From positions 1 to 23,873 of the IMG/VR virus record IMGVR_UViG_3300035034_003473: a DNA stretch of 23,873 nt. The stretch is one strand, 5' to 3'. Below, piece by piece: positions 4,386 to 23,873 of the stretch (its first letter is position 1; every line of letters begins with the position of its first letter). The notes beneath the pieces are model-generated. The model was not told the DNA's origin. It ran no database searches and saw only the letters and a program-made list of their open reading frames with translations. Source of the stretch: a virus. The translations under genes and the position numbers were made by a program.

Positions 4386-5540
4386 ATGAATTTACAAGAC
4401 GTAATAAAAGAAGCTAAAAGCAAATTTGAAGACCGTATATGTTTGGAAGGAAACTATCAATGGAATGGAAATTCCTTAGATTATAATAAACTAAAAAGCT
4501 TCATATTAGAATCTGCTCAACCAGGAAAAGAAATCTTAAATTTAGGTTGGCAAAAAGAAGGCTTCTGGGTTTGGATCAATGAAGTTTGCACTACCTCTGG
4601 AAGAAAGATTAAGATTGATGATTATGGTTTTTTTAAAATAAAAAACACTTCATACTTTGTGCCTAGCGCATTAAAAAAACCTCTAAATGCTTATAAATAC
4701 CAAAAACAAATTGCCTGTGTTTCCAAAAATGCATCTATAGATTTTAATTTCCTTACTCATACAGTGAAGCAAGTACACGGTGAGCAGGCTATTATTGGAG
4801 TGTTTTTTGCAATAGCTTCCATATTTCAAGATGTAGTTGAGAAACAACTTTATTTTTTTCCGCATTTATACTTGTATGGTCAAGATGCAACTGGAAAAAG
4901 TTCGCTTTCAAATTTATTAACCTCTTTTTTTGGAGAATGTAGACCTGCTTATGAAGGAGGCACAACCAATCAAGATTTGTTAATTATAAAAGACAACGAG
5001 ACTATTAACGGAATAAATTCTTTTCAAGATTGCTTACCTGCGAACAAAAACTTAGAAACCTTTTTTAATAGAGGTTTTCGTAGGGTTGGTTTTTACAACG
5101 AAAGATTAAATACTTATGGTAAGTCAAATTCGTCTTGCATTGTAATAAGCAGACACTTACTTTCTTCTGAAATAATATCTAAATCTATTTTGTTAGAGAT
5201 GTATAACAATAATAACGATGAAGGTTTCATACAGCTAAAAGAGCTTGCAAAAAAGACCCTCACAGAACACACCAATTACTTTTTAACCAAACGAGATAAA
5301 GTAGAATCACAGTTTTTAGAAAAATATCATTCATTTAAAGATTCTTTAATTTCAAATTCTTTAATAACTGACAATAGAATAATTTCAAATTATGCCGTTC
5401 TAGCCGCCATTTATGACATTGTTGTATTTGAAGATCATAACCTGCCTGTTTTTGATGTACTAGGCATTATGACCAGAGCGGCAAACAATCAAACTTCTAA
5501 ATTAAATATGGTTTTTTTTAACGAAAAAATGAAAAAGTAA
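4386..5540 (+). CDS. Stand-alone P-loop ATPase, paralogue of the phage helicase domain
   Basis: A 384-residue protein colinear with residues about 580-930 of the primase-helicase at 6662-9976. Shared landmarks are GNYQW near the N-terminus, LGWQ.EGFWVW, the HG..GI.G..FA..SIFQD..V segment before the ATPase motif, and the Walker A LYGQDATGKSS (K171, S172) against LYGPASSGKDQ in the large protein. It lacks the primase part and the C-terminal extension. At the place of R835 in the large protein (ALITRLIW) it has K266 (EIISKSIL), possibly a lost arginine finger. It may form mixed rings with the helicase, load it, or regulate it. It overlaps the next gene by one base (TAATG) and follows the DUF4406 scar. 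Confidence 0.75.
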   Translation: MNLQDVIKEAKSKFEDRICLEGNYQWNGNSLDYNKLKSFILESAQPGKEILNLGWQKEGFWVWINEVCTTSGRKIKIDDYGFFKIKNTSYFVPSALKKPLNAYKYQKQIACVSKNASIDFNFLTHTVKQVHGEQAIIGVFFAIASIFQDVVEKQLYFFPHLYLYGQDATGKSSLSNLLTSFFGECRPAYEGGTTNQDLLIIKDNETINGINSFQDCLPANKNLETFFNRGFRRVGFYNERLNTYGKSNSSCIVISRHLLSSEIISKSILLEMYNNNNDEGFIQLKELAKKTLTEHTNYFLTKRDKVESQFLEKYHSFKDSLISNSLITDNRIISNYAVLAAIYDIVVFEDHNLPVFDVLGIMTRAANNQTSKLNMVFFNEKMKK

Positions 5541-5779
5541 TGAGAAACAGACCACACCACCCAAACGGTTACCCAGAATTTGAGGAGCAACCATTAAACC
5601 AAATTCAAAGCATAAGCATAACACTTATTAAAATTGAACTACTGACTATGATTGCTCTATTTGTAAAACTGCTCTACTGGCCAAGCTGTCAAATTCCTTT
5701 TTACTTATTACTTAACCTGTTAGCTATAGCCATTACCTATGTAGTACTAGTATATGGTGGATTAAAGCAAAAAATATAA
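5540..5779 (+). CDS. Small two-helix membrane protein
   Basis: A 79-residue protein with a hydrophilic N-terminus and hydrophobic stretches at about 30-48 (IKIELLTMIALFVKLLYW) and 53-72 (FYLLLNLLAIAITYVVLVY). This predicts two membrane segments. It is translationally coupled to the ATPase gene upstream (TAATG). The function is not recognised. The early position argues against a simple holin; small early membrane proteins of temperate phages are often superinfection-exclusion factors, but nothing here proves that. Confidence 0.65.
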   Translation: MRNRPHHPNGYPEFEEQPLNQIQSISITLIKIELLTMIALFVKLLYWPSCQIPFYLLLNLLAIAITYVVLVYGGLKQKI

Positions 5780-5783
5780 CATC

Positions 5784-6086
5784 ATGATAAAATACAACAA
5801 ATGCAAAACCTGTAAAGAACTGCATTGGAATAATCAAGATTGCGCACCATTGTACCTGGTCTATTTTGAAGAATACTTAGGAGATGAAGCTAAAGAAATT
5901 AGAGCGCATTCCTTTCAAGAAGCGGCAGAAAAATTTGGAGAATATTATAACTCCGTTTCAGATTACGAGCTCATCAATCATTCTATAGAAGTAACTGTAG
6001 AATTTGAAAACGAAACAAGGTACTACAACATTAGTGCAGAACCTGACGTGTATTATACATCCAGAGAAATTGAAAAAACCCATTAA
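5784..6086 (+). CDS. Hypothetical early protein with possible N-terminal zinc knuckle
   Basis: A 100-residue acidic protein. The N-terminus has C7-x2-C10 and a further Cys at 20, with a His between (CKTCKELHWNNQDC), suggesting a small metal site. The remainder (FEEYLGDEAKEIRAHSFQEA onward) looks like a compact alpha-beta domain with no motif I know. It starts 4 bp after the membrane protein stop, so it belongs to the same operon. Confidence 0.6.
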   Translation: MIKYNKCKTCKELHWNNQDCAPLYLVYFEEYLGDEAKEIRAHSFQEAAEKFGEYYNSVSDYELINHSIEVTVEFENETRYYNISAEPDVYYTSREIEKTH

Positions 6087-6109
6087 AATTAAACCTAAAT
6101 AACAAAATT

Positions 6110-6478
6110 ATGCAAAACACAGACAAATTAAGAGAACAACTTTTATCAGGAAAAATAGTTGATATCATTGGGTTTGAAAAAACACAAAAGGTTTATAAAG
6201 AAACCTTAAAAGTATTTCCAAACCACGTTAAAATAAAAGAATCTAAACCTGTTCCAAAATGGATTGAAGCCACAGTCAAGCCAAAGAAGAAAATGCAAGA
6301 CGTGCCATTGTTGCTAATGAAAAGAAACAAACAAAATGCCAATTGGAATTCGGTTAGGCAAGGTCATCTTGGAAATGGTATGTTTTATATTGAAGGAGGA
6401 AGAACCTCTGATGAGTACATCTCACATTATCAACTCTTAGAATTGCCTCATCATGAAAAAATGAAGATACCAGTATAA
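6110..6478 (+). CDS. Hypothetical early protein, weakly DUF551-like
   Basis: A 122-residue protein. The C-terminal half (NWNSVRQGHLGNGMFYIEGG, then ISHYQLLELPHHEK) resembles the end of DUF551-type phage proteins, which close with a HW.pLPepP motif. The resemblance is weak and by eye. The N-terminal half is a basic helical region. It lies in the early operon, 23 bp after the preceding gene. Confidence 0.6.
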   Translation: MQNTDKLREQLLSGKIVDIIGFEKTQKVYKETLKVFPNHVKIKESKPVPKWIEATVKPKKKMQDVPLLLMKRNKQNANWNSVRQGHLGNGMFYIEGGRTSDEYISHYQLLELPHHEKMKIPV

Positions 6479-6504
6479 ATTTAACAAGATTTAACCCAAA
6501 AACC

Positions 6505-6672
6505 ATGCGAAAAATAAATCAAATTAAGTCAGATATAAACAGAGCCAAGATGCAACTGCAGCAGTTGGAAGATTCGGAACTATTCACCGAAACTGACAAA
6601 CAATCCTTGAAGCCAAAGTATGAAGAGGAAATAAAATCACTAACACTCAAACTCAAAATGTATGCTCATTAA
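6505..6672 (+). CDS. 55-residue helical protein overlapping the primase start
   Basis: An ATG at 6505 opens a frame that ends with TAA at 6670-6672, 11 bp inside the primase-helicase gene (ATG 6662). The product is almost all predicted helix, rich in Lys, Gln, Glu and Leu (KMQLQQLEDSELF, then KYEEEIKSLTLKLKM), and may form a coiled coil. It fills what would otherwise be a 183-bp gap, and the overlap suggests translational coupling to the primase. No family is recognised. Confidence 0.6.
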   Translation: MRKINQIKSDINRAKMQLQQLEDSELFTETDKQSLKPKYEEEIKSLTLKLKMYAH

Positions 6673-9600
6673 TAAAGATACGATAGACAAAGTATTTGAA
6701 ACGGCAGATATAGTAGAAGTCATTTCAGAATTTGTAACACTAAAAAAGAAAGGAGCTAATCATTTTGGATTGTCCCCATTTGTAGACGAGAAATCTCCTT
6801 CGTTTTCCGTTTCAGAAGTAAAAGGAATTTGGAAATGCTTTTCTTCAGGAAAAAGTGGAAGCAATGCGGTTAGTTTCCTTATGGAAGCCCAGCACATGAG
6901 CTACCCAGAAGCTGTTAAACACATTGCAAATAAATACAGTATTCCTGTAGTGGCAGAAAACGCAGCGCAAGCTAAAGTATATGAAGAAAAGCAGCAAAAA
7001 AAGAAAGACCTGCTACCTTTAATGGATGCGTGTATCAAAAAATTTGAAGATGCTTTTTGGAAACTTCCCGCAAATCACCCGGCTAAAATAGAAGTGTTTC
7101 AAAAACGCCAATATACAGAAGAGCTCGCTAAAGAATTACGCATTGGCTACGCTCCTGGTCACAGATATATTTATGACGTCTGTGTGGAGAATGGCAGAAA
7201 GCAAGATGCAAAGGATTTGTTCTTAATTACAGACGAAAAAGACAAGTGGGTTAACCGAGTAATATATCCATTTGTAGAAGTATTTGCAGGTAAACCCAAG
7301 CCTGTGAGCTTAGCAGGTCGTAGCCTAAGCAAAGATAAGAAGTACGCAAAATGGATAAATTCTATGAATACAGAGCTGTACCAAAAGGATAAATTCTGGT
7401 ATGGAATGCATCTTGCGAAACACAGCATTGCTAAGTCTAGAACGGCTTGGGTAGTCGAAGGCTATAACGATGTTATTGCTTGGCAGCGTTTTGGCATACC
7501 AAATACAGTTTCGCCTTGCGGTACAGCAATTACAACAAACCAAATCAAAATGCTTCGGAAATTTGCAGACTATGTTGTCTTTTGCTTAGACCCAGACAAA
7601 GCAGGGACTAAAGCTATGATTAAGCAGATTCAACAATTCTTAAAAGCAGATTTCAGATGTTATGTAGTTGAATTGCCTTACGTGCAACAACCATATTGTA
7701 ATCTTAAAAAAGTAGAACAAAAAGACTTAGCGCCTTTAAACATTAATAAAAAAACAATTTCTCTTCCTAAAAAACCAGACCCAGACGATTACGTTAGATT
7801 AATACAGGCAGTAGATGAAAATTCACTAGACCACATTAACAACAAGAAGTCTTGGAAAGATGGTTTTAGATTCTTATTAGAAAACAAAAAATCGCACGAC
7901 GAAGTTGAAAACAGACAAATGGCAAATGAAATGTTGTCTCTTATTTCTTCCATAAAAGATGATGGTATGCAGGACATTTACTTGAAGTGGTTAGCAAAAG
8001 AATCTGGGACTACACAGGCTAAAATAAATTCGTTATTTAAAGAACTGGAAAAACAGCAAGAAGTAACTCCGCAGGAAAGAATAAAAGATAAGCTGGATAA
8101 TTACAACTTATATGAAATGCCTGAAGATGTAAAAGAACCGCTAGAAAAGTATATTAAACTCATACAGAAATACAGATTGTTTCAGGCGAATAATAAAATA
8201 TATGTGCAGTATGGAGAAAATCCGCCCTATGGTTTTAAGGCGGTTTCTAATTTTTCTATTGAAATTATTCAGCACATGGAAGATGAAGATCGTTCTAAGA
8301 AATTAGTTCGTATAAAAAATACACACAACAAAGAATCGGTTTTTGATGTAGACTCTGCTTTGATGAACAAACCTAGCACCTTTGAAGATGTTATTACCCT
8401 ATACGGAAACTACCAGTGGAAGGGCGACAGAAAAGAACATCAATTACTCAAATTTTATTTATTTGACTTCATGGGTACTGGTAGACAGATAGATGTGTTA
8501 GGTTGGCAACCTGAAGGATTTTGGGTCTGGAATAACTTAATTGTTACAGAACACGGAGAGAAATTGGAAATTGACAAAAACGGCTGCTTTAGCCACAAGG
8601 AAGTGGCGTATTATATCCCTTCAGCAAATCGCATTTACATTAATAATCCGTATAAATACCTGCCACAAAAGAGTTTTTTAAGCATCAAGACAGAGGCTAA
8701 TTTCTTTGAAGTTTGCAAAATGGCTAACCTGGTACATGGCAACCACGGTATTATGGGAATTTTGTTTGCCGTATCTTCAATTTTTCAGGACATTGTAGTT
8801 AAGCATTTGAGCTCGTTCCCTCTTTTGTTCTTATATGGTCCAGCTTCATCTGGGAAAGACCAACTAGCTTCTATGATTAAATCTTTTGTTGGCATACCGC
8901 AGGTTTCAATTAACCTAGAAGGAAACGCTAGTACCCAAAAAGGAAAGATACGTGAGCTGGCACAGTTCTGCAATGGGATTTCTCAATATAGTGAATATAA
9001 ACCGGGCAATCCGGAACTAGACGGTATGCTCAAAGGGGTTTGGGATAGAGATGGATATAAGACGGCGAGCATCACGAGCCGTATTTCCATGAATTCTGTT
9101 CCTGTCTTGAGTTCTGCAATTGTTACTGGTAATTACGTTCCTGACCAAGAGGCATTAATTACACGGCTTATTTGGAATCTGATGGACAAAGGCGTTTTTT
9201 CTGAGGAAGACGAAAAGAACTTTCAAATCCTTTCAGATTACGTTCAAAAAGGATTTTCCTCTTTAACAAACGATTTACTGAAGCATAGGAAATTAGTGGA
9301 AGGTAACTTTGTCTTTGTGTACAGAAATATGAAGAAGCTGCTGAAAGAACTGAAACCAAACGCCAATCCACGTATGATTCAAAATCTTTCGGTTTTAGGT
9401 TCGTTTTACAAGTTGCTTTCAGATCATGTAGATTTCAGCTTTAATTTAACTAGCATTATTACCATTTTCGAAAAAATAATAGATAGCCAAATGAATAAGC
9501 TTTCTTCTGCAAGTTTGGTGAACAAGTTTTGGGATTGCTTCTTAGCGAGTATGCGTGGTAGTTACTCAGACAGATTAGAATTAGGAAGAGATTATGCACT

Positions 9601-9976
9601 AGACGGAACTACGCTGTATTACTCTTGGACAAATGTGTACAACAAAGTTTCTAGGCAGTGGTATTTGCAATATAAAGAAGCTGTACCAAGCAAGACGGTG
9701 TTGGCAGACCAGCTAAAGAAAGATGCCGGTTGGGTAGACTACATTGCGTGCCATTACTACAGCAGCAACAAACGAAGCTCTGCTTTCTGCTCAAATATTA
9801 AAGACTTAGCGGTGTGTGATGACTTGATGTTGGCTGTAGAATATGAGCGAGATAGAGTAGAACCTTTTGAGAAGAAGGACAAGAACGAGCAGCAGACAGA
9901 AACCCCTGCAACCCCAGATACATCATATACCGATTCAATGGAAGGTGAACAGCAAGGATTTGAATACCCAGAATAG
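6662..9976 (+). CDS. Phage primase-helicase fusion
   Basis: An 1104-residue replication protein that should make primers and unwind the phage origin. Residues about 1-100 form a CHC2-type domain that lacks most zinc ligands (GLSPF.DEKSPSF and WKCFSSGKSG where the canonical form has Cys/His), as in Bacteroidota DnaG. The TOPRIM core follows, with E266 in VEGYNDV, D310/D312 in DPDKAG and D373/D375 in PDPDDY. After a linker, residues about 580-930 form a P-loop helicase with Walker A LYGPASSGKDQ (K732) and a possible arginine finger R835. The last 50 residues are acidic and disordered. A smaller paralogue of the helicase half is encoded at 4386-5540. The repeat-rich region 9977-10257 directly downstream may be its origin. 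Confidence 0.9.
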   Translation: MLINKDTIDKVFETADIVEVISEFVTLKKKGANHFGLSPFVDEKSPSFSVSEVKGIWKCFSSGKSGSNAVSFLMEAQHMSYPEAVKHIANKYSIPVVAENAAQAKVYEEKQQKKKDLLPLMDACIKKFEDAFWKLPANHPAKIEVFQKRQYTEELAKELRIGYAPGHRYIYDVCVENGRKQDAKDLFLITDEKDKWVNRVIYPFVEVFAGKPKPVSLAGRSLSKDKKYAKWINSMNTELYQKDKFWYGMHLAKHSIAKSRTAWVVEGYNDVIAWQRFGIPNTVSPCGTAITTNQIKMLRKFADYVVFCLDPDKAGTKAMIKQIQQFLKADFRCYVVELPYVQQPYCNLKKVEQKDLAPLNINKKTISLPKKPDPDDYVRLIQAVDENSLDHINNKKSWKDGFRFLLENKKSHDEVENRQMANEMLSLISSIKDDGMQDIYLKWLAKESGTTQAKINSLFKELEKQQEVTPQERIKDKLDNYNLYEMPEDVKEPLEKYIKLIQKYRLFQANNKIYVQYGENPPYGFKAVSNFSIEIIQHMEDEDRSKKLVRIKNTHNKESVFDVDSALMNKPSTFEDVITLYGNYQWKGDRKEHQLLKFYLFDFMGTGRQIDVLGWQPEGFWVWNNLIVTEHGEKLEIDKNGCFSHKEVAYYIPSANRIYINNPYKYLPQKSFLSIKTEANFFEVCKMANLVHGNHGIMGILFAVSSIFQDIVVKHLSSFPLLFLYGPASSGKDQLASMIKSFVGIPQVSINLEGNASTQKGKIRELAQFCNGISQYSEYKPGNPELDGMLKGVWDRDGYKTASITSRISMNSVPVLSSAIVTGNYVPDQEALITRLIWNLMDKGVFSEEDEKNFQILSDYVQKGFSSLTNDLLKHRKLVEGNFVFVYRNMKKLLKELKPNANPRMIQNLSVLGSFYKLLSDHVDFSFNLTSIITIFEKIIDSQMNKLSSASLVNKFWDCFLASMRGSYSDRLELGRDYALDGTTLYYSWTNVYNKVSRQWYLQYKEAVPSKTVLADQLKKDAGWVDYIACHYYSSNKRSSAFCSNIKDLAVCDDLMLAVEYERDRVEPFEKKDKNEQQTETPATPDTSYTDSMEGEQQGFEYPE

Positions 9977-13476: not shown

Positions 13477-14751
13477 ATGAGCTTTACAAAAGATGACGCA
13501 GTTTTTGGTTATAAGTTTAACAGATTAGCTTTTACTGTTCCTACGCCCATAGTAAAAGATACTTTACAAGATCCTCCTGTTACAGGTAGGTTTTTTGCTG
13601 GTAATACTTTTAATACTGAGGAAGGAGAACCTATAATGAAAAATAGTATTACTTTTCTTTTTTATAGCTTACAAACTCAAAAATTAATAATATCATGGGG
13701 GGATGGAACATTTAATGAAAAAAATTTAATTGTAGGTGCTAATAGTATTGATAGAAATGAACATCAATATAACGATAATTTAGATAGTCATACAGTTGTT
13801 TTTATTTTTGAAAAGCCTAAACAAATAAGTGGTATAAATTCAGTTAATGTAAATGTTGGTGAAGTAATTCCTCAGGATATTAAAAAGTTTACTTCTTTGA
13901 ATAATCTTTCTTTTCGTTCAGAAAGTGGAATAACATCTTTTCCTGCAGATTTAAGTTCTTTAACTTTATTAACTTCTTTTAAAGTTGAAAATGCTGAATT
14001 ACCAAAAATTGATGATAGTTTATTTTCTTTACCTCTTAAAGTACTAAGTTTAGATTCTTCAATTGATTTCACTGATAGCGTTGCTTTAGAAAGTCTCGCT
14101 AGGCTTCCTGAATTTATATTTTTAGAAGAACTTAATTTTACAGAAACAAGTTTAACAGAGTTTCCAGTAAATTTTATAAATAGAACAAATCTTGTTAGAC
14201 TAAATATTGGTGGAAATAATCTATTTACAACTTTACCGCTTAATATACCAACTTCTTTAGAAAATTTATCTTTAAGAGCCAAAAATCCTTTCTTAACATC
14301 TTACGTTAATTTTGATAGATTAATAAATCTTAATGAAGTAAACTTCTCCAATACTTTTAATAATCTCACCCTTAGTATAGGTGATGAAATATCTTATTTA
14401 CATAAATTAAAAACTGTTACACATAGGTCTACAAACACACAAGATCGAACTGATGTTGTAGTCAACAATTGGTTTGATTTTATAGTAACTAGAGGTTATG
14501 GAAGTATAACAGATGATAGTGGAAATAACAAATTTAGAGACATGAGTTTTTTTTTAACTCAAACTGCAAACATAGCTAATCTTCCTACTGGAACTTACCA
14601 AGCTCCTACTAATTTTGATAAAAACATATCAAATGGAAATCCAGCAAATGAACTAGAAAAGATTTATTGTTTAGTTGAAAATTATGGTCACACATGGACT
14701 GTAGGAGACGGTAATACTAATGTAGGAGTACAAACATTTTCACCTTCTTAA
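13477..14751 (+). CDS. PKD-like plus leucine-rich-repeat fibre protein
   Basis: A 424-residue protein. Residues about 68-115 contain ISWGDGTFNEKN followed by EHQYNDNLDSHTVVFIF, the pattern of a PKD-like Ig domain. Residues about 135-330 form irregular leucine-rich repeats of the BspA type, for example LNNLSFRSESGITSFP, LEELNFTETSLTEFP and LVRLNIGGNNLFTTLP. The C-terminus (about 380-424) is Asn/Gly/Thr-rich. No signal peptide is present, so it is not a secreted host protein. A virion surface protein for host recognition fits its place 12 bp after the fibre gene. GC is very low (about 23% in a hand-counted 60-bp sample at 13981-14040), suggesting recent acquisition. Confidence 0.65.
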   Translation: MSFTKDDAVFGYKFNRLAFTVPTPIVKDTLQDPPVTGRFFAGNTFNTEEGEPIMKNSITFLFYSLQTQKLIISWGDGTFNEKNLIVGANSIDRNEHQYNDNLDSHTVVFIFEKPKQISGINSVNVNVGEVIPQDIKKFTSLNNLSFRSESGITSFPADLSSLTLLTSFKVENAELPKIDDSLFSLPLKVLSLDSSIDFTDSVALESLARLPEFIFLEELNFTETSLTEFPVNFINRTNLVRLNIGGNNLFTTLPLNIPTSLENLSLRAKNPFLTSYVNFDRLINLNEVNFSNTFNNLTLSIGDEISYLHKLKTVTHRSTNTQDRTDVVVNNWFDFIVTRGYGSITDDSGNNKFRDMSFFLTQTANIANLPTGTYQAPTNFDKNISNGNPANELEKIYCLVENYGHTWTVGDGNTNVGVQTFSPS

Positions 14752-18817: not shown

Positions 18818-21025
18818 ATGAAACGATTAGCCAGTACAATTAGTTTTCTGTATGCGCTGCTAGGTATTAGCGCATTACCGAAAGAAGAAGGAAAGCTCGC
18901 CTTTGATGAAGAGCAGAAGCAAAAAATAACAGAAGCCCTTGGAGAAAAGGACTATTCGCTTTTGGTTGCAAGAATAAACAAAGAGCTGAAAAGCGAAGTA
19001 GACAGCAAAGCTGAAAAGGATGCACTTAAAGACCAGATTGCAGCTGCAAGAGCAGAATTCCGTTCTTCTCTAGAAGGTTCTGGATACACAGAAGAAGAGA
19101 TTGCAGAAATGGCAGGCGAAGGTTCTAATTCAGATTTAGGACAACATTCAGCAAAACCAGATTCTGTTGAGCCTAATGCAGCTCTAGATAGTCTAGTTGC
19201 TGATTTTACGGCATACCGCAAAAAAACGGATGCAATGATAAAAAAACTGGTTGAAGAAGAAGAGCCAGATAAACATAAAAATGCTAAAAATATGAATTTA
19301 GGCATAGCACATAGTGCTACTCACTTGTTTGCGCAGAACTCCGCTGTTATGGCGTTTGATGGGCGTAACTGGAACAGAAGAGCAGCCGGTATTTCTAAGA
19401 CGAAAACCGACTGGAATGGCACTGCAGGTAAAGTAAATGTTGAGAAATTAAACGGTGATGTAGATTTATACTTTCGTGAAAATCCTTCAACTATAGATAG
19501 CTTGCATAGAGATATGTTGGAGCTTCCTTCATTTTGGCCAAGACGTATAAATGTATCTGATCAAGTTGCTGACGGTAGAATAGTTTCTGATGAAGTTACT
19601 CAGGTTAGAAAATTGCCTTGGTTAGCAAAAAACAAACAAAAGATTCAGCCAGAAGTACGTAAAGTATTTCCAGTCTCTATTGATGTTGAATGGACAGGAA
19701 ACGACTTACAAAGTTTAGAAGAGTCTTGGTTAAATAGATTTGTAGATAATGGTAGTGGTCCTTACAAGATGGCATTTGTTCAATTCTTAGTTTCAGAGCT
19801 AATGAAGAAAGCTAGAAACGAAGATCGAATTTCTTCTGTAAAAGGGGTACACGTAGAAACTCCAGACAACGCTACCGTTGCAGGAAGATTCATAAACAGA
19901 CAAGATGGTTTGTTGTACCAGTTGTTTAGAGCGGTGTATGCAGATAAAAAAGTAAAAGTTCCTTCTTTAGGCTTACCAACTGCTGAAAACATTGTTGATT
20001 ATGTAGAAGCTACTGTACGTGAAAATCTTACTGAAGAAATCAGAGAGAATACAGACTTAGTTTATTACATGGAGCCTGATCACATCAAGCTTTATAGAAC
20101 ACGTAAAAAAGAGTTGTTTGGAAATTACAAGACCACCACTACCGCAGATTATGACACTATAGAAAATTACACTAACATTAGAATGGTACCATTACATGAT
20201 TTAGCCGGAACAAATGTGCATTTTATCACTTTTGATGATAATATTGAAATCTTAGAGAACCTGCCAAATGAAAAATCTATCTTAACTTTTCAAATGTTAC
20301 GACGTATGATTTATGGTCATGGAGATTATAAATATGGTGTAGGCTTTAAGCATTTAGGTACAGAAGTAGAAGAAGGAGACCCGGATGCTTTTAAGGTGCA
20401 AAGTGTATGGACTAATGGAGTTTTCCCATTTAAGAAAGATTTCTTTATTCCGTTTTTTGACAATGCAACTGGTAAGTTGGTGGTTAAGTACAGTAACTTG
20501 GTTATTCAGTCGGGTTTTGAAACTAACATTACTGCCTTAGACAAAACCAATTTGTTTGAAGGACAGATTGTAAAGATAAAAGGAAATACAAGCGGTGTTA
20601 CTGCTTCCTTGGTACACAATACTACTTTTATCTTGGCAGGTGATGCTAACTTTGATTTATCTAGTGGCGGAACAATTACGCTAGTTGTAGACGCGGCTCT
20701 TAATTTGAAGGAGCTAAGCAGAACTACAGCACCAGCAATTAATGCGGCAGAAATACACGAATTTAGCGGTGCAGTAATAGATGTGAAGGACGGGTTGAAT
20801 CAAGCCTTTAACGGATCAGCTACTACCGTAACTGGTATTGAGAATGGTAACTATAACCAAAAGTTGACCATTACTAACGTAACAGCCCCAACTGCAAATT
20901 TAACGGTAAGCAACGTAGTTGGAAATATAGCAGTAGCATCTAATGCAGTAATTAAGGCGGGAGATGAGTTAGTGCTGATTTTTGTAGATGGCGTGTGGGT
21001 TGAGTATTCTCGAACCATAGCCTAG
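18818..21025 (+). CDS. Major capsid precursor with fused scaffold and C-terminal beta domain
   Basis: A 735-residue protein. Residues about 1-160 are highly charged and helical (EEQKQKITEALGEKDYSLL, then SEVDSKAEKDALKDQIAAAR), like the delta/scaffold domain of HK97-type capsids. Residues about 165-555 form the likely capsid fold, starting near the AAGISKTKTDW segment; cleavage by the upstream protease would fall around 155-185. Residues about 560-735 are Thr/Asn/Val-rich, with a run of beta strands ending VDGVWVEYSRTIA, probably a surface decoration domain. The gene directly follows the S49 protease. A strong terminator follows it at 21033-21068. The capsid call rests on protease linkage, size and architecture. 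Confidence 0.75.
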   Translation: MKRLASTISFLYALLGISALPKEEGKLAFDEEQKQKITEALGEKDYSLLVARINKELKSEVDSKAEKDALKDQIAAARAEFRSSLEGSGYTEEEIAEMAGEGSNSDLGQHSAKPDSVEPNAALDSLVADFTAYRKKTDAMIKKLVEEEEPDKHKNAKNMNLGIAHSATHLFAQNSAVMAFDGRNWNRRAAGISKTKTDWNGTAGKVNVEKLNGDVDLYFRENPSTIDSLHRDMLELPSFWPRRINVSDQVADGRIVSDEVTQVRKLPWLAKNKQKIQPEVRKVFPVSIDVEWTGNDLQSLEESWLNRFVDNGSGPYKMAFVQFLVSELMKKARNEDRISSVKGVHVETPDNATVAGRFINRQDGLLYQLFRAVYADKKVKVPSLGLPTAENIVDYVEATVRENLTEEIRENTDLVYYMEPDHIKLYRTRKKELFGNYKTTTTADYDTIENYTNIRMVPLHDLAGTNVHFITFDDNIEILENLPNEKSILTFQMLRRMIYGHGDYKYGVGFKHLGTEVEEGDPDAFKVQSVWTNGVFPFKKDFFIPFFDNATGKLVVKYSNLVIQSGFETNITALDKTNLFEGQIVKIKGNTSGVTASLVHNTTFILAGDANFDLSSGGTITLVVDAALNLKELSRTTAPAINAAEIHEFSGAVIDVKDGLNQAFNGSATTVTGIENGNYNQKLTITNVTAPTANLTVSNVVGNIAVASNAVIKAGDELVLIFVDGVWVEYSRTIA

Positions 21026-21103: not shown

Positions 21104-21919
21104 ATGGAAGTTTTAGATAAAAAACGAAACACCTCTAGTCCTGGAGGACCACAGCCAAAGCAGAATTACATTACTGTAATTAAGTTACAGGACTTGCTGC
21201 AAATCCCTACTCCAAATGCAAAAGGAATTTTGCACGAAGGTATATTTCAGCTAAAAACAGGAACTGAGCCTTTAAGCTTATATAACACCCCTAGTTTTCA
21301 AGACCTAAGTTTTGAAAGTGATGGAGAAGAAGATGCAGCACTTATTAATAAGACATTTGCTATTCGTTACCCAGGAGACCATTTGGAGATTAGAGAATTT
21401 GTTCACGCAAGACAAGACATTGAAGTAATTGTATTATTCGGTTCTTGCAGTGGGCAGAGAAAAACCATTCTTGGACGTGATTGTGCAGCAATGAAAATGC
21501 GTGCCAACTTGGTAAGCAATAATGAAAGTACGCATTATGAGCTTACTTTTAGCAATATGAATAATGACAATATTGTTCCTGGCTTTTACGATGGACCAGA
21601 CCCGGTGTCTACTCCATTTGTAGCGCCAACTGTTGCTTTAGCCTTGACTATTGCAAATGGGGTATTGGTACAATTGCCTTCTTCTGCAACCGCAGAAGCG
21701 GTAAGTGTTGCAAGTACAGATTTAACTGCTGGAACATTTGTTTCTGTTCTTGGTGGTGGTGGTGCAGACCCTGCTGTTATTTCAGACGGAGCTGCAACTG
21801 CCGGAACATTTATCCTGAAAGATGGTGTTTCCTTCATTGGTTTAGATGGAGCGAGAATACTCTTTGAAGTATTTGAAAACGCTACTACAACTTTCTTTAT
21901 TGAGCGAAGTAGAGCATAG
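21104..21919 (+). CDS. Phage structural protein, head decoration or tail-tube type
   Basis: A 271-residue protein with a Pro/Lys-rich N-terminus (SSPGGPQPKQ), a beta-rich central part (ITVIKLQDLLQIPTP, then DLSFESDGEEDAAL) and a C-terminal 100 residues rich in Ala, Thr, Val and Gly (GTFVSVLGGGGADPAVI), ending FFIERSRA. Composition and repeat-like strands suggest a virion surface or tube protein. It is framed by terminators on both sides (21033-21068 and 21939-21970), so its level can be set apart from the capsid. No family name can be given. Confidence 0.55.
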   Translation: MEVLDKKRNTSSPGGPQPKQNYITVIKLQDLLQIPTPNAKGILHEGIFQLKTGTEPLSLYNTPSFQDLSFESDGEEDAALINKTFAIRYPGDHLEIREFVHARQDIEVIVLFGSCSGQRKTILGRDCAAMKMRANLVSNNESTHYELTFSNMNNDNIVPGFYDGPDPVSTPFVAPTVALALTIANGVLVQLPSSATAEAVSVASTDLTAGTFVSVLGGGGADPAVISDGAATAGTFILKDGVSFIGLDGARILFEVFENATTTFFIERSRA

Positions 21920-22039: not shown

Positions 22040-22537
22040 ATGGATAAGAAAAAAGTAATTAACAAAATTAAAGATGCCGAATTGAACGAAAGACAACGTT
22101 TCTCTGCCTTAATTCCTGCGCTTAGTTCTGCGCCAAGAAAGAATCTTTCTCTCACTGCGCATTACAACAGATCAGGATTTTCAAAAGACCGCTTAAAGTC
22201 TTTGATTTACGATGTGCAAAAGGCTTGGAGCATTTCTGATGCAGAATTGCGTAATGCAGTTTTTGTAGTGAAAAAAGGAAAAAAGGCTAAAAAAAGCAAA
22301 AAAGCAGATTTAGGTAAAGAAGATGAAACTCAAACTGAGGAAGAAAAAGCAAACGCCTTACAGCAAGCTAATGAAGAACTGAAAGCCTTGGACTTAGAAA
22401 AAGCAGGCTACCACGAATTTAAAGGCTTGGCTTTTACGTTGGCAAAGCTGCTTGATGTGGAGTTGCAAGACAAAACAAGTGCAACCCTGAGCGCTTTCTT
22501 AGCTGAACAAAAAAAAAGTTTGGAGCAAGGGGAGTAA
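22040..22537 (+). CDS. Hypothetical late protein, upstream partner of a likely -1 frameshift
   Basis: A 165-residue basic-to-acidic protein. The N-terminal 75 residues are helical (NERQRFSALIPALSSAPRKN). The centre is a Lys-rich then Glu-rich linker (KKGKKAKKSKKADLGKED). The C-terminus is helical (AGYHEFKGLAFTLAKLL). Near its 3' end it contains nine consecutive A (22509-22517), giving the slippery string A AAA AAA in frame, 19 bp before its TAA. A -1 slip would continue into the next gene to give a fusion of about 321 residues. No family is recognised. The layout resembles lambda G/GT, but the location next to the terminase does not. Confidence 0.6.
   Translation: MDKKKVINKIKDAELNERQRFSALIPALSSAPRKNLSLTAHYNRSGFSKDRLKSLIYDVQKAWSISDAELRNAVFVVKKGKKAKKSKKADLGKEDETQTEEEKANALQQANEELKALDLEKAGYHEFKGLAFTLAKLLDVELQDKTSATLSAFLAEQKKSLEQGE
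22509..22518 (+). promoter_or_regulatory. Slippery A9-G site, putative -1 frameshift signal
   Basis: Nine A then G. The zero-frame codons AAA AAA (22511-22516) preceded by A form a classic A_AAA_AAA heptamer. The -1 frame opens after a stop at 22504-22506 and stays open to 23004, so a slip here joins the two genes. RNA polymerase slippage on the same run would have the same effect. Confidence 0.5.
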
Positions 22538-22542
22538 GAGAG

Positions 22543-23004
22543 CTGTTTCCTTTTTTAGCGGACAAAGATTGTCCTGACAAATTGAAGATTCTGGTGGCTG
22601 ATATGATTACCAGTTACATCACAGTCAATAATAACAGAACGAAGCTCGTAGATGATTTTGAAAAGCCGGTATTAAGTAATGCAGATTTGTTTGAATTAGC
22701 CAAAGAGACCATTAAAGCTTACAACGAGGATCAAGACGCATTTGCCGAGCTTCTGTTTTATAGGGATAACGGAAAGCTTTTAAAAAAGCATTCCATTTTT
22801 GACCAGGAGAATTTGCAGGAAGAAGTAGACCATATGAAAGATTTAGATTTGTACAAAGCGTATAAGAATCTAGGGTCAAAATTATCACGCCTTCGCAAGA
22901 AACTAAAAACGGAAGCTTCAAAAGAAGTAGAGCGTTTAATTTGTCTTACTTCAACAAAAAGAGAAATGATTAAAGCAAAGTTAGATGAAAAACAAATTCT
23001 TTGA
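22543..23004 (+). CDS. Hypothetical late protein lacking an ATG start, downstream frameshift partner
   Basis: The frame is open from 22507. Between there and ATG at 22603 the only near-start codons are CTG 22543 and TTG 22582, yet the stretch RELFPFLADKDCPDKLKILV before the TTG looks like real protein, not noise. I therefore give the boundary at the CTG with low certainty. Expression by -1 frameshift from the upstream gene is the favoured reading. The product is helical, with the charged segment LGSKLSRLRKKLKTEASKEVERL at the C-terminus. It overlaps the next gene by 20 bp (22985-23004). The function is unknown. Confidence 0.5.
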   Translation: MFPFLADKDCPDKLKILVADMITSYITVNNNRTKLVDDFEKPVLSNADLFELAKETIKAYNEDQDAFAELLFYRDNGKLLKKHSIFDQENLQEEVDHMKDLDLYKAYKNLGSKLSRLRKKLKTEASKEVERLICLTSTKREMIKAKLDEKQIL

Positions 23005-23602
23005 TATTTCAGGAAAGCAGCAAGCAGAAGAGCAAAAGGTTTCTTCTGTTTTCAAATCAAAGTACATCAATAAGCATTTTCAAAAGATAGCTTATTTGCA
23101 CAAAGATTTGTTAAGGCTTCCTACTGATGAAGAGTTCTTTTTTTTGCAGACAGACAATTCATTTAACGCTTTTACATTTATACCTTTTATAGCGCAACAT
23201 CAAAGCATAGAACACTTGCAGATTTGCACCTATTCTATCAGCAGACGTGTAATTGATGCTTTATTAGAACTGCACGACAAAGGTTACGCAGAACGCATTA
23301 CGTTAATGATTTCAGATTCGTTAATTAAAAGAAATCCGACTACGGTAGATTTGTTGGCAGCGCAAGTGCATTCCAGACCCAATTTTGAGGTTCAGTTTTC
23401 TTGGAGTCATGCAAAAGTTACCTTAATTAAAACAAAAGACCAGTATTTTGGCATAGAAGGTTCAGGAAATCATTCAGAGAATGCCTTTTATGAGCAATAT
23501 GTATTTTATAATTCAAAAGACACCTATGAATTCAGAAGCAAACTCTTTAGTGAAGTACAAATCCGAGCTAAGGCTGTCGCAGGAACAGTACAGCCAAATT
23601 GA
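22985..23602 (+). CDS. Phospholipase D-like (single HKD) protein
   Basis: A 205-residue protein of the PLD-like superfamily. The C-terminal half carries H142-A-K144, D152 and the following GSGN (159-162) in SWSHAKVTLIK and FGIEGSGNHSEN, a slightly widened form of HxK(x)4D(x)6GSxxN. The central YSISRRVIDALLELHDKG and ERITLMISDSLI segments fit the alternating strand-helix fold. One HKD motif suggests a homodimeric active site, as in Nuc-type nucleases. It lies between head genes and the small terminase, so a role in DNA processing during packaging is possible but not shown. Confidence 0.7.
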   Translation: MKNKFFDISGKQQAEEQKVSSVFKSKYINKHFQKIAYLHKDLLRLPTDEEFFFLQTDNSFNAFTFIPFIAQHQSIEHLQICTYSISRRVIDALLELHDKGYAERITLMISDSLIKRNPTTVDLLAAQVHSRPNFEVQFSWSHAKVTLIKTKDQYFGIEGSGNHSENAFYEQYVFYNSKDTYEFRSKLFSEVQIRAKAVAGTVQPN

Positions 23603-23873
23603 AACTTTAGCAGCTAGCAACTTCGCTCCGAGAAATATAGCCAAATACTTAGATGTAAATCTAAAGGTGTTTATGCTGGAGTGGAATGATAAAGATACCT
23701 TGGTTCGGCATCATTATGATAGAGGAATTTTACAAAGTCAATTTGATATTTCCAACAGTCTGAAAGGATTGGCAGACAAGGGAAATATTACGGCAGTTCA
23801 AGAGTTCAAAAAGCTTCAGCTAGAAAACGAAATCGAAAACTTAAAAACACAATTTTTCAACAATGAATATTGA
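23526..23873 (+). CDS. Probable small terminase subunit
   Basis: The frame ends with TGA at the last base of the window. The longer frame from 23481 starts deep inside the PLD-like gene; the ATG at 23526 (MNSEANSLVKYK) gives 115 residues and still overlaps it by 77 bp. A GTG at about 23550 is another option. Residues about 18-45 (QEQYSQIETLAASNFAPRNI, then AKYLDV) read as an N-terminal HTH of the terminase small-subunit type, followed by a helical part (NSLKGLADKGNITAVQEFKK) seen in the same class. The large terminase is expected directly beyond the right edge. Confidence 0.65.
   Translation: MNSEANSLVKYKSELRLSQEQYSQIETLAASNFAPRNIAKYLDVNLKVFMLEWNDKDTLVRHHYDRGILQSQFDISNSLKGLADKGNITAVQEFKKLQLENEIENLKTQFFNNEY

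Follow-up and report, generated by a model that had tools for sequence, protein, structure and literature searches.

A phage head-region gene of the phrog_21662 family very probably expressed in two frames through a -1 shift at a run of nine A's

Introduction

The recoded phage genes that we know of are tail-chaperone and coat-protein cases. In lambda G/GT, a -1 shift yields a short and an extended product from one phage assembly gene (PMC5009743); coat-protein frameshifts have been described in T3/T7, in Lactobacillus phage A2 and in Listeria phages A118, A500 and PSA (PMC5009743). A bacterial secretion gene provides a third point of comparison: RNA mass spectrometry proved slippage on a run of eleven A's in tssM1 of Citrobacter rodentium, where the two resulting forms are both needed (PMC4256274).

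Here we analyse a stretch of 23,873 nucleotides (positions 1 to 23,873 of IMG/VR virus record IMGVR_UViG_3300035034_003473; hereafter the window) from a virus that infects Bacteroidota bacteria. We consider it highly probable, judging from the sequence, that positions 22040-23004 constitute one gene of the phrog_21662 family, laid out in two frames that are joined by a -1 shift at a run of nine A's (A9), giving products of 165 and 321 residues and descending from a single-ORF ancestor. Like C. rodentium tssM1 and Yersinia tssM3, this would be a derived shift at an A run in a gene whose relatives are mostly single ORFs, with a truncated and a full-length form (PMC4256274); unlike tssM1, it is a phage gene, with A9 instead of A11, and its putative shift is recognized from the sequence. 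It resembles lambda G/GT in the type of shift and in the pair of products, but the gene and its place differ, the short form has two domains and most relatives in the family are unshifted. With the coat-protein frameshifts it shares a location in the head-gene region and two lengths of one protein; however, the protein is not a capsid protein, and it is extended by a conserved helical domain rather than by an Ig-like one.

The original prediction, made from the window alone, held that a frameshift would be unusual in a capsid–terminase interval. The known coat-gene frameshifts (PMC5009743) weaken that remark and make the head-gene position less unusual than claimed; what stands is that the gene encodes neither a coat protein nor a tail chaperone. 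The locus adds a well-supported recoded gene to the tail-chaperone and coat-protein cases, in a family that is widespread in Bacteroidota phages and whose member in the window is split in two by gene callers.

Geometry of the split site

The features on which the analysis bears are the following (positions in the window, all on the + strand; domain borders derive from alignment to a structure model described below).

21104..21919, +: upstream neighbour, 271 aa, phrog_19897, head module
22040..22537, +: 0-frame ORF, 165 aa; predicted N-terminal helical domain, charged linker and middle helical domain; ends 6 codons past CAA AAA AAA
22504..22506, +: TGA opening the -1 frame, a little 5' of the A9 run
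22507..23004, +: -1 frame, 165 codons plus stop; predicted C-terminal helical domain starting RELFPFL (Arg codon at 22537-22539)
22509..22517, +: A9 run, putative slippery site; A9 also in 10 further clade contigs, A8 in another
22535..22537, +: TAA stop of the 0 frame, at an equivalent position in the two clade branches; shares bases with the V/I and R codons of the -1 frame
22985..23602, +: downstream neighbour, PLD-like protein of 205 aa; starts within the -1 ORF (20-nt overlap)

The run is flanked by C on its 5' side and by G on its 3' side (C AAAAAAAAA G) and is read in the 0 frame as CAA AAA AAA AGT TTG GAG CAA GGG GAG TAA. Ahead of RELFPFLADKDCPDK, the -1 frame contains no ATG, GTG or TTG; its first TTG lies at 22582 and its first ATG at 22603. 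The locus therefore combines a slippery run in the 0 frame, an adjacent stop and an overlapping -1 ORF devoid of a start, the arrangement by which programmed -1 recoding is recognized. On re-reading the sequence, the geometry given in the original prediction (A9, the nearby end of the 0 frame, the opening of the -1 frame at 22504-22506) proved exact, as did the predicted sizes (a 321-aa fusion in addition to the 165-residue product). The same holds for its statement that no ATG precedes coding sequence in the -1 frame, which extends to GTG and TTG before RELFPFL.

The run by itself is unremarkable: the window is AT-rich (G+C = 35%), and about two A9 runs are expected in synonymous shuffles of it. 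Another run of the same length, T9 at 14547-14555, occurs on the coding strand of the ORF at 13477-14751, where no break of the frame was noticed. What exceeds chance at 22509-22517, as far as sequence comparison goes, is the end-to-end match of the two halves to a single family, together with the persistence of the split in a clade under purifying selection.

One family covers both halves

Profile phrog_21662 of PHROGs (288 positions) aligns with the two ORFs in order: the 0-frame ORF covers positions 4-115 (E 5.9e-5) and the -1 ORF positions 117-250 (E 8.7e-14). Relatives were gathered by tblastn and pattern searches, with the downstream PLD-like gene as a handle; an initial scan of genome contigs had returned no relative. 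All of the 40 aligned homologues match phrog_21662. We classed 87 distinct C domains from all loci, of which 76 lie in a single ORF, 9 are split (one of them, on a contig with several frame breaks, was set aside) and 2 are undecided. The fused ORF that the original prediction proposed to look for in homologues is thus the prevailing state of the family. Two candidates were discarded during this classification: L031/L093, whose low-quality sequence carries several frame breaks, and L077/L088, which had appeared frame-broken and has a GTG start.

Single-ORF relatives include L004/L005 (332 aa) and the homologues of Flavobacterium phage 6H (gp23, 288 aa), Cellulophaga phage Ingeline (gp47, 301 aa) and laban6-1 (gp34, 328 aa), a phage that undergoes spontaneous induction (PMC7077304). 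In these three Duneviridae-like phages, the protein occupies the same place, upstream of a small terminase-like gene, and is encoded by a single ORF of 288-328 aa, unlike the split gene of the window. In the papers searched, Duneviridae and frameshift are not mentioned together. We also noticed that a Flavobacterium-type relative (L067/L023, IMGVR_UViG_2876970700_000003) is longer than L064/L021 by a block of about 100 residues in the linker that separates its N domain from its C domain, the C domain being nearly identical; this linker is an indel hot spot.

Conservation of the split within a clade

The A9 run, the -1 relation and the nearby stop are common to 11 contigs of one clade, so that the slippery site is indeed conserved among homologues, as the original prediction had proposed to check. 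The split sequences group together (SH-aLRT 99; 100/100 in a careful tree) and are nested beside single-ORF relatives. Sampling of this clade comprises two deep branches, about one substitution per site apart in the tree, with about five distinct haplotypes, all metagenomic. Two contigs (L002 and L003) are identical in DNA to the window over the split gene. In the second lineage (L009-L016), nucleotide identity with the window over the locus is no more than 55-57%, but the run, the -1 relation and the stop are kept, the tails reading SLEQGE and SLANEA in the 0 frame and KFGARGVRELF and KLGQRSIRELF in the -1 frame (window group and second lineage, respectively). As a separate observation, the identity between the window and L002/L003 extends through the split gene to 23262 and is followed by 26 differences in less than 500 bases (23263-23746), a cluster suggestive of a border left by recombination among close relatives.

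In one of the 12 contigs (L017), the run is A8 in a sequence otherwise identical to that of L009 over 8.6 kb, indicating that the run length can vary or be misread. Were it misread throughout, the real run would be A10 (or A7) and the gene an ordinary single ORF, interrupted in the database by a sequencing or assembly error: homopolymers are error-prone and a change of one base would suffice. We nevertheless give such an error a very small chance, since the same length recurs in 11 contigs with several metagenome identifiers and from two diverged lineages, and since pattern scans permitting A7 to A11 returned A9 or A8, and A10 in none of the contigs found. Were the length instead to change at replication, as slippage-prone homopolymers can, the fusion would be switched on and off, and the A8 contig among A9 contigs could be a trace of this phase variation. 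We give that reading hardly any credit, because the A10 (on) state is the one missing from the contigs found and both diverged lineages stand at A9. A run longer by one base would restore a single ORF, as would be expected if the long protein alone were useful; its absence from both lineages hints, short of proof, that the short product matters.

Selection on the -1 frame

A gene decaying toward loss would also present a split, as would two distinct proteins, the downstream one being initiated at an internal or non-ATG start. Two observations are in line with this: outside the split lineages no relative is broken, and codon 33 of the -1 frame is Met in both branches of the clade, although not in all single-ORF relatives. 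The pattern of substitutions makes both versions very unlikely. Among members of the sister lineage (L009, L010 and L015), the C half shows a dN/dS of 0.12-0.20 in the -1 frame, compared to at least 0.57 in the other frames where computable, and it contains no stop codon. Purifying selection is strongest just 5' of the codon 33 Met: from the 0-frame stop to the first ATG of the -1 frame, dN/dS is 0-0.06 in the -1 frame, the changes being nearly all synonymous. No ATG, GTG or TTG before the conserved motif is shared, such a codon being absent in every frameshifted lineage. Likewise, none of the clade homologues was found to have an ATG start at the RELFPF region, a feature that, according to the original prediction, would speak against a fusion.

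On this evidence, the stretch that separates the 0-frame stop from the first ATG is translated in the -1 frame, and because no normal start precedes it, the ribosomes must come from the 0 frame. At 61 nt, the gene's longest invariant stretch includes both the run and the stop (permutation P 0.005); some of this invariance is to be expected from double coding. The slippery site and both frames are thus conserved under selection, as expected for recoding. All these comparisons indicate that the split is real and maintained by selection, not a one-off error.

A single gene with two products is, then, our preferred reading, and both the short protein and the long fused protein are very probably made. 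Most products would end at 22537 and comprise the N-terminal and middle domains (165 residues), and a fraction would slip back one base at the nine A's to give 321 residues, including the C-terminal domain present in all relatives. The slip would involve either tandem tRNA-Lys on A_AAA_AAA, i.e. the ribosome, or the insertion of one A by RNA polymerase. The split would derive from a single-ORF ancestor and would have been retained for long; the time of retention suggests a benefit from having the two products, or from the ratio between them. We infer the occurrence of the shift itself, as well as its efficiency, the machine that slips and the short product's own role.

Ribosome or RNA polymerase

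The frameshift fusion put forward in the original prediction is supported by the single-ORF homologues and by the run conserved in the clade, but it may result from polymerase slippage. RNA polymerase would then add an extra A on A9, so that a fraction of the mRNAs carries both halves in one frame, a possibility to which we attribute a little less than an even chance; it concerns the slipping machine only, and the two-product outcome would be the same. The run has the homopolymer length associated with transcriptional slippage (about 9 or more A/T). Indeed, polymerase slippage is known at A9, a length that many bacteria select against and that IS genes and T. thermophilus dnaX exploit (PMC1088944), and the C. 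rodentium tssM case is of the same kind. Furthermore, no conserved stimulatory stem-loop or Shine-Dalgarno-like element was found, although such stimulators help -1 recoding and do not accompany every case. The stem-loop that the original prediction had suggested seeking 3' of the site did not show up: in pseudoknot-free folding, the region folds no better than shuffles (z-scores -0.15 to -1.45), and no structure is common to the window and the sister lineage. Arguing in the other direction, A9 runs are not depleted in the genes of the window relative to synonymous shuffles, and a possibly related split member, L147, has only seven A's followed by a stop (A_AAA_AAG_TAG), which a ribosomal slip fits better. 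From these sequence features, we rate a ribosomal -1 shift and polymerase slippage on A9 as about equally probable. The coexistence of close relatives with and without the shift offers a direct test of why a phage trades a single ORF for two products, and the same relatives make it possible to test whether A9 sites of Bacteroidota act on the ribosome or on RNA polymerase.

Other split members of the family

Two split members fall outside the window clade in trees. In L147, from an isolate-derived prophage record, the 0 frame reads GCT GAA AAA AAG TAG, that is, the slippery heptamer followed by an immediate stop, and the -1 frame encodes the C domain. In G120, a prophage on a bacterial chromosome (L115, G120:C1:3576000-3595900, reverse strand), the run is A9 and the C domain is again encoded in the -1 frame; the protease, major capsid, terminase and portal genes around it are intact, but a PLD-like gene is lacking. 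Both breaks lie in the linker before the C domain, the same inter-domain linker as in the window. About 1970 Bacteroidota genomes were sampled (1974 including the window record and the handle genomes); of the approximately 29 with a homologue, G120 alone is split, as judged by open-frame length.

An independent origin of L147, a single sequence, is favoured by the trees; a test on the adjacent PLD gene did not reject a single origin with the window group (p-AU 0.214). For G120, a single origin with the window group was borderline rejected (p-AU 0.045); this is also one sequence, and a true A10 misread as A9 would remove the case. It is conceivable, though we hold it somewhat doubtful, that the family gained -1 sites more than once, through different slippery sequences (A9, A_AAA_AAG_TAG) but always exactly at the linker preceding the C domain, because a set ratio of the two-domain short form to the full protein aids assembly or packaging.

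Protein and gene neighbourhood

An AF2 model of the single-ORF relative L048, computed with 40 sequences, reached a pLDDT of 89 (compared to a poor 67 with 7 sequences) and is helical, with three units at residues ~1-76, 97-155 and 166-327. The run aligns to the end of the middle unit, so that the short form would consist of units 1-2 and the long form would add the third. Pfam and PDB sequence searches returned no family for the protein, and searches of PDB, BFVD and VIA-align with the L048 model gave no convincing match, helical bundles scoring middling by chance. A resemblance of the middle domain to SAP/HeH-like domains, noted by eye, had no Pfam support and was discarded.

The location of the gene in the head/terminase block points to a role in head assembly or packaging. 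A tail assembly chaperone of the G/GT type, which should lie between the tail tube and tape measure genes, was rejected: in the complete genome of Ingeline, the tape measure gene (gp08) is at 4982-8014, far from the homologue (gp47, 38902-39807), which precedes the terminase genes, and the same is true of 6H.

Two further resemblances were seen in the window. At its C-terminal end, the 271-aa upstream neighbour resembles the C-terminal beta domain of the presumed capsid protein, a large one, encoded next to it (18818-21025), the two sharing LPxxATxxxVxV...GTFVSxLGGGGxDPA in what looks like a repeated domain. A 384-aa ORF (4386-5540) has the pattern VHG..GI.G..FA..SIFQD..........LYG....GK in common with the primase/helicase-like protein of 1104 aa (6662-9976), whose C-terminal half it resembles; this may reflect a duplication or the presence of a second helicase-like gene.
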